A stretch of 64,000 nt of DNA from Methanosarcinales archaeon Met12 (lineage in GTDB: Archaea; Halobacteriota; UBA148; JAJOKI01). Position numbers and translations under genes: made by a program. Location: NCBI GenBank assembly GCA_002813105.2, contig CP017966.2, forward strand, positions 916,745 through 980,744. Reading direction: 5' to 3'. Numbering within the stretch: the first letter of the stretch is position 1; each line of letters begins with the position of its first letter. Below the pieces are notes generated by a model. The model did not search any database, was not told the DNA's origin, and worked only from the letters and a program-made list of their open reading frames with translations. Of this stretch, positions 7,731 through 50,099 are shown in pieces.

Positions 7731-8705
7731 TTATGCGCCGAGCAGTCCTATGCCGAACATGATTAAGATGGCGACCAGTAGCCCAAAGATGGCGAACGTC
7801 TCTGACATTACGGTCAATATCAGGCCCCGCCCCATCGCATCTGGGTTTCGTGATGTGGCGCCAATCGCACCAGCCGCGGTTATACCTTGGCCTATGGCAG
7901 ACAAACCAGCGAGACCAATTGCCAGGCCACAACCGATTGTTGCGAGACCCACTGTAACCGTTGCATTGAAGTCTCCCACGAACATTCCGGTAAATGCCAT
8001 CAACAATATCGCTATGAGCAGACCATATATCGCCTGCGTCTCCGGAAGCACCGAGAACACAATTCCCTTGCCAAACATCTCTTCCTTCTCTGCAGTTGCG
8101 CCAATACCGGCCGATGCAGCAATCCCTTGGCCTATACCAGACAAACCAGCGAGACCAATTGCCAGACCGCAACCGATTGCAGTCAATCCAACTGAAATGG
8201 GAACATCGACAGCTATGCCGCCGAACATTCCAGTAAATGCCATCAACAATATCGCTATGAGCAGACCATATATCGCCTGCGTCTCCGGAAGCACCGAGAA
8301 CACGATACTTCTTCCCATTGCTTCGCTTTTCTCTGCAGTTGCGCCAATACCGGCCGATGCAGCGATCCCTTGACCTATGGCAGAGAAACCAGCGATGCCA
8401 ACTGCCAGGCCAACACCTATTGCAGTCAATCCAACTGAAACAGGAATATCGACCGCTATGCCGCCGAGCAATCCCGTTGCCATTAAAATTAATATTGCTA
8501 CCAATAGGCCGTATATCCCCTGTGTCTGCGGTAGCGCCTGAAATACGATTGCCATCCCAAACCTATCCGGCTTTTCTGCGATGACTCCTGCTCCTGCAGC
8601 TCCTGCAATTCCCACTCCAATACCTGAACCTATCGCTGTCAATCCAACAGCCAATCCAGCTCCGATCGCTGCGAGCGCAGCTCCAACTCCTATTTCAATC
8701 ATCAA
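7731..8705 (-). CDS. atpK: A-type ATP synthase rotor subunit K, quadruplicated (four fused hairpins)
   Basis: Subunit K (c) forms the ion-carrying rotor ring. Usual members are about 70-100 aa with one or two hairpins. This one is 324 aa, four units of 81 aa, giving eight predicted helices. Each unit has a G-rich first helix (IGxGLAxGLAG...IGQGI) and a second helix carrying the ion-binding position: LPQTQGIYGLL in unit 1, LPETQAIYGLL in units 2 and 3, SETFAIFGLL in unit 4. The binding glutamate is therefore replaced by glutamine in unit 1 and kept in units 2-4. Units 2 and 3 are nearly identical in DNA over about 80 nt (7981 and 8224 regions), showing recent duplication or conversion. Multi-hairpin c subunits are known from Methanocaldococcus (three) and Methanopyrus (many). 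Confidence 0.95.
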   Translation of the reverse strand: MMIEIGVGAALAAIGAGLAVGLTAIGSGIGVGIAGAAGAGVIAEKPDRFGMAIVFQALPQTQGIYGLLVAILILMATGLLGGIAVDIPVSVGLTAIGVGLAVGIAGFSAIGQGIAASAGIGATAEKSEAMGRSIVFSVLPETQAIYGLLIAILLMAFTGMFGGIAVDVPISVGLTAIGCGLAIGLAGLSGIGQGIAASAGIGATAEKEEMFGKGIVFSVLPETQAIYGLLIAILLMAFTGMFVGDFNATVTVGLATIGCGLAIGLAGLSAIGQGITAAGAIGATSRNPDAMGRGLILTVMSETFAIFGLLVAILIMFGIGLLGA

Positions 8706-12511: not shown

Positions 12512-12548
12512 CTTGCGACATTCCCTCCTGTTATTTATCCTATTATAG

Positions 12549-12614
12549 AGCCATTCATATAAAAAGATGACACTGCCAACTGAAAAATAAAGAAAATAAA
12601 TTAAAAAATAAAAA
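12549..12614. repeat. 66-nt exact direct repeat, copy 1
   Basis: An AT-rich segment starting AGCCATTCATATAAAAAGAT is identical, base for base, to 19791-19856. In both places it lies upstream of an antitoxin-toxin gene pair on the minus strand and is joined to a GC-rich hairpin terminator. Such long exact identity between intergenic regions implies recent duplication or recombination. Confidence 0.9.
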
Positions 12615-12638
12615 GGGGGAGCGGTTCGCACCACTCCC
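12609..12638 (-). terminator. Hairpin plus T-run terminator (orphan copy)
   Basis: Read on the minus strand, GGGAG-t-GGT-gcga-ACC-g-CTCCC forms a strong hairpin (12617-12638) followed by a T-rich tract. The same module follows the pilin gene at 19856-19880. No intact gene lies immediately upstream of this copy on the minus strand, so it looks like a displaced duplicate. The remaining sequence to 12742 shows only a likely TATA element (GATTAATAAAAC) for the next gene. Confidence 0.6.
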
Positions 12639-14110: not shown

Positions 14111-14399
14111 ATGTTCCCCATATCTTCTCAGGTGGTAAAATAGTATCTACTAGAATTGAGGAATACAAAAGATACCACGACGGAGAGATATGTACAAGAG
14201 CAAGATTATACTGGCGTGAGGACGGAAAGCAGAGGCGTAAAACACTCATATCGTTCCCCAAGCCAAAATCGAATTTGACAGACGCCGAGCTCAGGGAAAT
14301 AGAAAATGCGCTGCGCATTTCGAAGATGTCGAAATCCCAAAGGGATTACGACTCCGTCAGATGTTCCATCTGGCGGCGACAAAACATAGCACCAACTAA
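14111..14399 (+). pseudogene. Degraded small ORF with two apparent frameshifts
   Basis: Three short frames join into a plausible coding sequence: MFPISSQVVK from the ATG at 14111, then IVSTRIEEYKRYHDGEICTR and following residues (RLYWREDGKQRRKTLISFPKPKSNLTDAELREIENALRI), then FEDVEIPKGLRLRQMFHLAA up to a stop at 14397-14399. The second frame is continuous with the downstream secretion ATPase frame but has no ATG, GTG or TTG before 14275. I read this as a broken gene of about 95 codons rather than an N-terminal extension of the ATPase. Its family was not recognised; the Lys/Arg content suggests nucleic acid binding. Confidence 0.35.
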
Positions 14400-19165: not shown

Positions 19166-19251
19166 GGGGAGCAGTACCGACTAAATCAACAGATTTAGGC
19201 GGACTCGCACCGTTCCTAAGAGTCGTTCAGGGTTGATGCTACGCTCTGGCT
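19166..19251 (-). pseudogene. Remnant of a pilin 3' end with its terminator, interrupted by an inserted hairpin
   Basis: Positions 19223-19251 match the 3' end of the intact pilin gene (19882-19910) in 27 of 29 bases. The adjoining 19166-19216 matches that gene's terminator, except that a palindrome (CTAAATC-aaca-GATTTAG, with CCG/CGG flanks) is inserted in the terminator loop. The sequence between 19033 and 19165 holds only the promoter-side region of the RAD55-like gene. This looks like a decayed duplicate of the pilin plus toxin-antitoxin segment. Confidence 0.6.
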
Positions 19252-19762: not shown

Positions 19763-19790
19763 ATATCTCCTCCTATCATCATTCCATTAC

Positions 19791-19856
19791 AGCCATTCAT
19801 ATAAAAAGATGACACTGCCAACTGAAAAATAAAGAAAATAAATTAAAAAATAAAAA
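19791..19856. repeat. 66-nt exact direct repeat, copy 2
   Basis: This segment is identical to 12549-12614. It lies between the pilin terminator and the hicBA start and would serve as the hicB leader or promoter. The other copy stands upstream of a DUF104/PIN pair. The repeat thus links the two toxin-antitoxin loci, a likely product of ectopic recombination or duplication. Confidence 0.9.
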
Positions 19857-19877
19857 AGGAGCAGTCCGCACCGCTCC
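19852..19877 (-). terminator. Terminator of the second pilin gene
   Basis: On the minus strand GGAGC and GCTCC (19858-19877) form a hairpin with a 10-nt loop, followed by T6 and further T-rich sequence. It begins 21 nt after the pilin stop codon. Related copies lie at 12609-12638 and 19166-19216. Confidence 0.65.
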
Positions 19878-22229: not shown

Positions 22230-22537
22230 GGACAGATGTTTCCATCATACGGGAAGTTTACGATGTGATAGAGGACCGAAAGAAGAATCCCAAAAAAGGG
22301 TCTTATGTATGTTCACTGTTGAGCGATGCCAATGGCCGAATCCTGAAAAAAATCGAAGAAGAATCAGGCGAATTGATAATGGCGGCAAAAAGCGGAGACC
22401 GTAAAGACATCATCCACGAATCCGCGGATTTGATATTTCACACTCTGGTGGTATTGGCTGCCAATGACATTCCCCTTGAAGATGTATTAAATGAGTTGAA
22501 ATCTCGAAGAGATTACAACTGTCGCAGGAAAGAGTAA
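22226..22537 (+). CDS. hisE: Phosphoribosyl-ATP pyrophosphohydrolase
   Basis: This enzyme hydrolyses phosphoribosyl-ATP to PR-AMP in the second step of histidine synthesis. The 103-aa product contains LLSDANGRILKKIEEESGELIMAAKSGDRKDIIHESADLIFHTLVVLAA, the HisE/MazG fold with the metal-binding EExxE and ExxD acidic residues. The start is ATG at 22226, in an ATGA overlap with the previous gene and with GGAGG 9 nt upstream. No other his genes are in the window. Confidence 0.93.
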   Translation: MRTDVSIIREVYDVIEDRKKNPKKGSYVCSLLSDANGRILKKIEEESGELIMAAKSGDRKDIIHESADLIFHTLVVLAANDIPLEDVLNELKSRRDYNCRRKE

Positions 22538-49082: not shown

Positions 49083-49220
49083 TTACAAATTTATTTGTAA
49101 TTCCTACGGGATTTCAACATATCGCAGATGGAACACCGACTAACTCGGAAGAGTTAGACGGACTCACAGATCTTCGATCTGTGACCTCTGCGAGAGTTGT
49201 AATCCTTATGGGATTTCAAC
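49083..49220. repeat. Palindrome-chain element E2
   Basis: In order this contains TTACAAA/TTTGTAA (49083-49100); a 25-nt imperfect palindrome ending GGGATTTCAAC (49094-49118); and CGCAG...CTGCG enclosing GATGGAACA, the hairpin CTAACTC-ggaa-GAGTTAG (49140-49157) and CACAGATC-ttc-GATCTGTG (49165-49183). It ends with GTTGTAATCC...GGATTTCAAC (49196-49220), which runs into the SUI1 stop region. The order matches E1 at 23497-23612; the two 25-mers differ at four positions. Sequence 49044-49082 shows nothing else. Confidence 0.7.
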
Positions 49221-49619: not shown

Positions 49620-49721
49620 GGGCCCGTGGTCTAGTTGGTTATGACATCGCCTTTACACAACCCTCTTCAGCTGAACGGGTGTAGATGGCGGAGATCACCG
49701 GTTCGAATCCGGTCGGGCCCA
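49620..49721 (+). tRNA. tRNA-Val (TAC) with 28-nt intron
   Basis: Acceptor GGGCCCG/CGGGCCC, T arm CCGG-TTCGAAT-CCGG and A discriminator are perfect. The anticodon stem TCGCC/GGCGG with loop TTTACAx gives anticodon TAC. A 28-nt intron (about 49657-49684, starting around AACCCTCTTC) lies at the canonical site after position 37. The mature form is about 74 nt and CCA is not encoded. Confidence 0.93.
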
Positions 49722-49741: not shown

Positions 49742-50013
49742 AGTCCCGTAGGGTAGCGGTCAATCCTGTAGGCCTTTGGAGCAACCTTTTCCAAAAGGTT
49801 GAACTAAAAACAGAAAGTACTGCTCGAAGGAGCATAAAATGATCAACCTGCTCACTGCTCCGTGTGGCAGATGGAACATCTGCCACTCCGTCTAAATCTC
49901 CGGATTTAGTCGGCAGTGAGAGGGTCTCTACGAAGTAGAGACTCCTGTTTGCAGGTTGGTTTGCAGGTTGCTGAAGATAGCCTGCGACGGCGGTTCGAAT
50001 CCGCCCGGGACTA
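49742..50013 (+). tRNA. tRNA-Gln (TTG) with an exceptional 199-nt intron
   Basis: The exons fold as AGTCCCG/CGGGACT, D arm with GGTAGCGGT, anticodon stem TAGGC/GCCTG, loop CTTTGGA (anticodon TTG) and T arm GGCGG-TTCGAAT-CCGCC. This is a normal archaeal tRNA-Gln (mature about 73 nt). The intron 49780-49978 follows position 37 and is 199 nt. Typical archaeal tRNA introns are about 15-130 nt. It is filled by hairpins described in the next entry. Confidence 0.9.
49780..49978 (+). other. Hairpin-chain intron of tRNA-Gln (palindrome-chain element E3)
   Basis: Within the intron are AACCTTTT-cc-AAAAGGTT (49783-49800) and TGCTC-gaag-GAGCA (49821-49834). An outer stem CTCACTGC/GCAGTGAG (49851-49858, 49913-49920) encloses GTGGCAGATG-gaa-CATCTGCCAC (49864-49886) and CTAAATC-tccg-GATTTAG (49892-49909). 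Then follows GTCTCTAC-gaa-GTAGAGAC (49924-49942). The GATGGAACA motif and the CTAAATC hairpin are shared with E1, E2 and the 19.2-kb remnant. Whether splicing still works depends on the bulge-helix-bulge at the ends. Confidence 0.75.
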
Positions 50014-50099
50014 CTCTAGCCAACTGAAACAAAGTGGAATGTTGGCTTTACCGTGCCAGCTTTAGGTTTAAGCTGGTTCTGAATCCGCCCGGGACTACT
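50014..50099 (+). repeat. Two hairpins plus a 19-nt duplication of the tRNA-Gln 3' end
   Basis: The hairpins are AGCCAAC/GTTGGCT (50018-50024, 50041-50047) and CCAGCTT/AAGCTGG (50056-50062, 50070-50076). The 19 nt GAATCCGCCCGGGACTACT at 50081-50099 repeats exactly the tRNA-Gln end at 49997-50015. A repeated tRNA 3' end is the classic footprint of an integration event; here the inserted segment would be only the 65 bp between them. Confidence 0.6.

Follow-up and report, generated by a model that had tools for sequence, protein, structure and literature searches.

Among the tRNA genes of this archaeon, tRNA-Gln(UUG) raises the question of how an intron at the ordinary position has come to be 199 nt long and filled with hairpins. 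The gene lies in the window, that is, the whole 64,000-nt stretch of DNA that was analysed (positions 916745-980744 of an archaeal genome of 1.07 Mb in a single contig), and consists of the following parts.

49742..49779, + strand: 5' exon of tRNA-Gln(UUG), positions 1-37, in cloverleaf pairing with the 3' exon; the 5' exons of relatives are 95-98% identical
49780..49978, + strand: intron of 199 nt at the canonical site 37/38, a chain and nest of hairpins
49979..50013, + strand: 3' exon, positions 38-73, in cloverleaf with the 5' exon

The best explanation, with a probability of about 0.85 as judged from sequence comparison, is that an ordinary archaeal tRNA intron at the canonical site has grown through the repeated insertion of small mobile palindromic elements.

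The tRNA-Gln(UUG) Gene and Its Intron

The original prediction identified the exons as tRNA-Gln(UUG) interrupted after position 37, and the cloverleaf formed by the exons (49742-50013) bears this out. The break separates position 37 from position 38, as in canonical archaeal introns, and the tRNA is otherwise intact. A second intact tRNA-Gln(TTG) gene had been named in advance as evidence against this reading; a genome-wide DNA search with the whole gene as query found no other copy of a tRNA-Gln(UUG) exon. Both ARAGORN and Rfam missed the gene, and introns as large as this one slip past standard tRNA finders. The tRNA-Phe(GAA) called by ARAGORN at 49941-50014 is an artefact made of an intron repeat and the tRNA-Gln 3' exon; a plausible tRNA-Phe(GAA) is found at genome positions 897363-897436. 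Directly upstream of tRNA-Gln lies tRNA-Val(UAC), at 49620-49721, with a 28-nt intron.

The intron and the sequence immediately downstream of the gene can be divided as follows.

49781..49802, + strand: terminal intron hairpin GCAACCTTTTCCAAAAGGTTG, the ancestral-type part, common to the short introns of relatives (the introns of G003, G009 and G005 begin CACAACC)
49844..49850, + strand: 5' arm CAACCTG of the class I host hairpin, pairing with 49952-49958; elsewhere the family reads TCAACCTGTTTGCAGGTTG
49851..49862, + strand: 5' part of the host palindrome, CTCACTGCTCCG, whose loop holds the 51-bp unit; copies without the unit read CTCACTGCTCCGCAGTGAG
49863..49913, + strand: alpha double-hairpin unit of 51 bp (TGTGGCAGATGGAACATCTGCCAC + TCCGTCTAAATCTCCGGATTTAGTCGG), matched by covariance model R2 at 71.8 bits (E 2e-16) and itself one of the nine model sequences of R2
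49914..49947, + strand: remainder of the host unit, the CAGTGAG arm and adjoining hairpin GTCTCTACGAAGTAGAGAC
49948..49971, + strand: tandem 12-nt repeat TTTGCAGGTTGG, comprising the 3' arm of the class I hairpin and the distal intron helix
50016..50080, + strand: 65-nt double hairpin flanked by two copies of the tRNA-Gln 3' end (read directly; relatives are without the duplication)
50081..50099, + strand: duplicated tRNA-Gln 3' end GAATCCGCCCGGGACTACT, 19 nt, the first copy being 49997-50015 (read directly)

Read from its 5' end, the intron has a short terminal hairpin and then a larger nest, in which CAACCTG...CAGGTTG surrounds the palindrome CTCACTGCTCCG-CAGTGAG; the 51-nt two-hairpin unit sits in the loop of this palindrome, with hairpin GTCTCTACGAAGTAGAGAC alongside. 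The predicted fold of the pre-tRNA reaches -125.7 kcal/mol, compared with -82.9 for shuffled sequences (z = -8.8). Four of the intron stems are perfect, 7-10 bp long and closed by short loops (shuffle mean 0.36), and to these are added a stem of 5 bp and two helices of longer range that surround other stems. The earlier count of at least six perfect hairpins was therefore slightly generous. The host palindrome without its unit, CTCACTGCTCCGCAGTGAG, occurs in the Arg(UCU) intron and downstream of tRNA-Thr, and a near-identical copy lies in a Met intron. The best-defined element is a unit of about 51 bp with two hairpins side by side, and units sit in one another's loops.

The 19-nt duplication of the tRNA-Gln 3' end around the 65-nt double hairpin has an att-like appearance. 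A similar duplication of a tRNA-Thr 3' end is present near genome position 702 kb.

Predicted Splicing of the Precursor

The splicing endonuclease of this genome is a single open frame of 385 residues with two PF01974 domains, a fused arrangement that probably corresponds to the alpha-prime-2 architecture. Endonucleases of the alpha-prime-2 type require a strict bulge-helix-bulge, defined here as 3-nt bulges and a 4-bp helix. Five other introns (Gly-TCC, His, Cys, Thr and Lys-CTT) pass this definition, as do 0.12% of shuffled introns. At the Gln junction, the 4-bp central helix (C-G, U-A, U-A, U-G) is present. The size of the 5' bulge depends on A(i1)-U(i-7), being 2 nt with this pair formed and 3 nt only with it open. 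The fold that contains both the correct tRNA and the splice helix has -119.2 kcal/mol, which is 6.5 above the minimum. Given that the gene is single-copy, the tRNA-Gln(UUG) precursor is likely to be spliced. The pre-tRNA would be cut by the fused two-domain endonuclease and ligated, and the hairpin intron discarded; elements in tRNA introns are presumably tolerated since splicing removes them.

Intron Growth in Relatives and in Other tRNA Genes

Comparison of the locus in sister genomes, as the original prediction proposed, uncovers a graded series. The relatives are metagenome-assembled "Methanocellales" and "Methanosarcinales" archaea, one of which, G001, is a congener. Their Gln introns measure about 27-29 nt in five genomes (G002, G004, G005, G006 and G007), 77 nt in G003 and 128 nt in G009, in comparison with 199 nt here, and the shorter ones stop at earlier points of the nest. 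Introns of 27-29, 77 and 128 nt would thus represent earlier stages in its assembly. The Gln intron of G008 is also long, but its building block is a different, unrelated double hairpin (about 50 nt), which is present just downstream of the G008 Gln gene as well. Independent hairpin families have therefore made use of the same refuge, the Gln intron.

Long introns are not confined to tRNA-Gln. Of the 33 tRNA genes delimited in stretches that had been picked for tRNA matches or copies of the elements, 18 carry an intron of 25 nt or more, and in 12 the intron measures 96-366 nt. The long introns are mostly assembled from recurring hairpin blocks, but they are not always hairpin chains: the 96-nt intron of Lys(UUU) has no perfect hairpin of at least 6 bp, and the introns of Thr(UGU) and Ala(UGC) each contain a single one. 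The Gln composite, in which the host hairpin carries the 51-bp unit, recurs in the Gly(UCC) and His(GUG) introns at 97-98% identity, the three introns having in common a block of 120-133 nt that is 97-98% identical. Tandem duplications of 12 nt and arrays with a period of 63/75 nt are also encountered in introns. Composites common to several introns could owe part of their distribution to gene conversion from intron to intron rather than to new insertions.

These observations strongly support the earlier proposal that mobile palindromic DNA had inserted into a small intron, since relatives have the 27-29, 77 and 128-nt stages and copies of the inserted piece, together with empty sites, are found elsewhere. 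The proposal was too narrow in two respects. It spoke of a single element, whereas at least two hairpin classes are present and nested in each other; and it was framed for tRNA-Gln, whereas long introns occur in twelve tRNA genes and the elements have also entered protein genes.

Hairpin Families across the Genome

The same hairpin families occur in tRNA introns, between genes and in frame in protein genes, including essential ones. The original prediction that the Gln intron has motifs in common with intergenic elements holds for the 51-nt unit, which recurs on the opposite strand at 49136-49186. The copies in the window outside the tRNA-Gln locus are listed below.

49136..49186, - strand: second 51-bp alpha unit, in an intergenic composite downstream of a SUI1 gene (Pfam SUI1); R2 78.5 bits, an R2 model sequence
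49094..49118, - strand: b hairpin (GTTGAAATCCC...ATTACAA) of the same composite; R1 35.6 bits
49196..49220, - strand: b hairpin of the same composite, overlapping the 3' end of SUI1; R1 39.4 bits
23500..23609, - strand: intergenic composite of b and other hairpins
14328..14378, + strand: double hairpin (b plus d), in frame within the gene for a PilB3-like T2SSE ATPase, in its N-terminal region
22495..22519, + strand: b hairpin, in frame at the C-terminus of the phosphoribosyl-ATP pyrophosphohydrolase (HisE) gene
19177..19211, - strand: truncated alpha unit, intergenic; R2 37.5 bits

Two further sets of repeats lie in the window. A 72-bp repeat at 12546-12617 and 19788-19859 is 97% identical and has 29-bp repeats nearby at 19223 and 19882, with no link to the hairpin families seen. 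At 7846-8549 there are three direct repeats about 243 bp apart, probably a multi-domain coding repeat.

Copy numbers rest on searches together with targeted stretches of the genome. A pattern search for the b hairpin, GTTGAARTYCCnnnGGRATTnCAAC, yields 52 matches over both strands with no more than 3 mismatches, corresponding to about 30 sites in this genome; the reversed control pattern gives none, and relatives have fewer b matches than this genome. The covariance model R2, describing the 51-nt alpha unit, gives 22 matches here; several of these are among its nine training sequences, whose match is built in, and others are opposite-strand matches to the same site. R2 matches are present in 7 of the 11 genomes of the class that were searched. 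Module matches in G002, G004 and G010 were discarded, being one ordinary coding gene.

The palindromes have changed in sequence and kept their pairing. Across 44 b copies, standard pairs make up 95.5% of the pair cells, and compensatory changes on both sides are seen in 33, against a shuffle mean of 8.4 (0/500); the nine alpha units have 98.2% standard pair cells and 10 two-sided compensatory cells, against 3.2 in shuffles (0/500), all counted on the same alignments from which the b and alpha structures were read. Such covariation shows that palindromy has been maintained through change, which is no demonstration of function. DNA mechanisms could also keep palindromes. Comparisons of filled and empty sites give inserts near 25-26, 51, 76 and 102 nt, along with class I blocks of 46, 63 and 75 nt, a clustering read by eye from a list with many overlapping comparisons.

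Insertions into Protein Genes

That insertion is precise can be seen from empty sites in relatives. The clearest case is the ribosomal protein gene uL10. The congener G001 has exactly one 51-bp unit (VTDETSVSPSKSVDLVG) between GCTTGATGA and ATCTGAT, with no base duplicated, and the empty site in this genome has flanks almost identical to those of the filled site, the comparison being between two species of one genus. The uL10 matches of eight other relatives are also without the unit, as judged by alignment or length. A second 51-bp insertion in G001 lies downstream of tRNA-Thr, with a duplication of 0-1 bp. The two exact alpha sites have the flank TGATGA^ATC in common and differ in the orientation of the unit, which is opposite in one and the other; two sites are too few to define a target.

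Empty orthologous sites were also compared for TiaS and IMP dehydrogenase. In TiaS, 33-34 additional residues fall exactly at the junction of two stretches whose alignment to solved TiaS structures is unbroken; this insert is absent from all ten relatives, and in DNA, compared with the congener, it amounts to 102 bp. The IMP dehydrogenase gene has an 81-bp insertion in its CBS region, absent from 9 of 9 relatives with an orthologous match. A different insertion, of 48 nt and accompanied by a 10-bp duplication (CGGGAGTTCC), is found in the TiaS gene of G001, so insertion without duplication is not a universal rule here.

By element sequence, hairpin copies also lie in frame in the genes for thymidylate kinase, an asparagine-synthase-domain protein, endonuclease dU, a ThiS-family protein, family-B DNA polymerase, leucyl-tRNA synthetase and replication factor C, besides the PilB3-like ATPase and HisE; this list, from thymidylate kinase to HisE, records presence of the element only. 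For leucyl-tRNA synthetase, phmmer gives no single clean gap, and the case rests on the element sequence. Among relatives, the Elp3 gene of G009 has a b-containing unit in frame, and in G003 a double-hairpin unit brings an in-frame TGA into a PIN-domain gene, which means that some insertions do damage. Since only two of the six alpha frames are open (three for the beta unit tested), selection on the reading frame is to be expected. An AlphaFold model of uL10 with its insert, built from six sequences, has a pLDDT of 38, too low for the model to be used in judging whether inserts form exposed loops.

How the Elements Might Spread

The elements would be non-autonomous, each whole unit being added in either orientation with no target duplication or a duplication of one base. 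Copies would survive in tRNA introns, where they are removed from the RNA, or between genes, where they do little harm. They might also survive in genes if a unit chances to leave the reading frame open and the protein can accommodate a short added segment. Whole-unit insertion, followed by intron-to-intron conversion that spreads the composites, is the favoured course of events.

It is unlikely that tRNA introns grow mainly by recombination, through gene conversion between introns and slippage as in the transposed introns of Thermoproteales, with no insertion of defined units. The block common to three introns, the 12-nt tandem duplications and the 63/75-nt arrays are what such a process would leave, but units also lie in unrelated sites (uL10, TiaS and IMPDH) with sharp ends and in one size class; the two processes can coexist. 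Single-stranded DNA transposition of the hairpins by an IS200/IS605-like (REP/RAYT) Y1 transposase supplied in trans is improbable. Hairpin units without target duplication would suit Y1 chemistry, and Y1 transposases are present in 3 of the 11 genomes searched. However, a profile search with PF01797 (IS200/IS605-type Y1 transposase) found none in this genome or its congener, none of these hairpin units flanks the Y1 loci of relatives, and fixed-polarity insertion would not place the alpha unit in both orientations at TGATGA^ATC (n = 2). Viral, phage or plasmid carriers of the units gave no matches. A route through RNA, in which the hairpins, as transcripts and perhaps in the form of excised tRNA introns, would be copied back to DNA before insertion (a route proposed for mitochondrial double-hairpin elements), is doubtful to a like degree: it is favoured by the enrichment in tRNA introns and by the lack of flanking duplication, an argument used for Allomyces elements (PMC2800124), but alpha units occur antisense too, and no intermediate was seen.

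Two further readings were weighed. That the intron encodes a conserved functional RNA, such as a box C/D or H/ACA guide, is very improbable: the strong fold and stem covariation would be expected of one, yet no Rfam family matches at either threshold, the insert is absent from the introns of relatives, and the same units lie in protein reading frames elsewhere. A candidate box C/D guide, suggested by an AUGAUCA...CUGA pair, was dropped, having no family match and no conservation in relatives. An assembly artefact or chimera can hardly be entertained; repeats do break assemblies, and the Gln gene of the congener stops at a contig edge, but the units are present in several independent assemblies, at different sites and with intact frames.

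Whole-unit insertion may be extended, tentatively and with less than even odds, to a broader proposal: that these are self-nesting archaeal double-hairpin elements, spreading as whole 51-bp units by a transposase-independent and possibly RNA-based process, for which tRNA introns serve as a spliced-out refuge and which add short peptides to essential proteins.

Relation to Known Elements

The in-frame invasion of conserved proteins by palindromes is best documented in Rickettsia. Rickettsia palindromic elements are short palindromic repeats of several families, found in frame in unrelated protein genes (PMC10969869). The hairpins described here likewise form a dispersed palindromic repeat family and, at uL10, TiaS and IMPDH, have inserted in frame opposite empty orthologous sites. 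The likeness is one of behaviour at the protein level. The Rickettsia elements are bacterial and about 150 bp long, whereas the archaeal units are 25 and 51 bp, nested and concentrated in tRNA introns. Fungal mitochondrial double-hairpin elements (Allomyces, Schizosaccharomyces octosporus) vary between close species and lie between genes and in an rRNA gene (PMC2800124, PMC10085805); those of Allomyces have no reported flanking duplication (PMC2800124). Two adjacent hairpins acting as one mobile unit, variable presence and no flanking duplication are features of the present elements too. They differ in lying on an archaeal chromosome instead of mitochondrial DNA, in comprising several unrelated sequence families, and in their in-frame protein insertions and occupation of tRNA introns; the likeness is of architecture and of the lack of duplication. 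The best reading, by analogy, is that they may be an archaeal counterpart of both groups, with membership of neither claimed.

Other systems resemble these elements less closely. REP/REPIN sequences with RAYT are also small dispersed palindromes in high copy, but this genome has no Y1 transposase associated with the repeats, and its units lie inside genes and tRNA introns. The terminal inverted repeats of an autonomous element and the target duplication that define MITEs are not seen, as uL10 has no duplication and no parent element was found. Transposed tRNA introns of Thermoproteales are similar introns in different tRNA genes of one genome (PMC4033280), a likeness that extends to the present introns, except that here the moving pieces are hairpin units, also found outside tRNAs, and introns reach 366 nt. 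Canonical archaeal tRNA introns have the same position, 37/38, and central 4-bp helix. The Haloferax tRNA-Gln intron is 31 nt in a genome with a range of 31-103 nt (PMC7714728), against 199 nt for tRNA-Gln and a maximum of 366 nt here. A search of the openly licensed literature found no archaeal precedent for such elements.

The graded Gln introns provide a stepwise and concrete record of how a tRNA intron grows. In-frame invasion and double hairpins occur together in one small archaeal genome, with base-precise empty sites in a congener, and the mechanism, the choice of target and the protein-level effect of insertion thereby become testable in this system.
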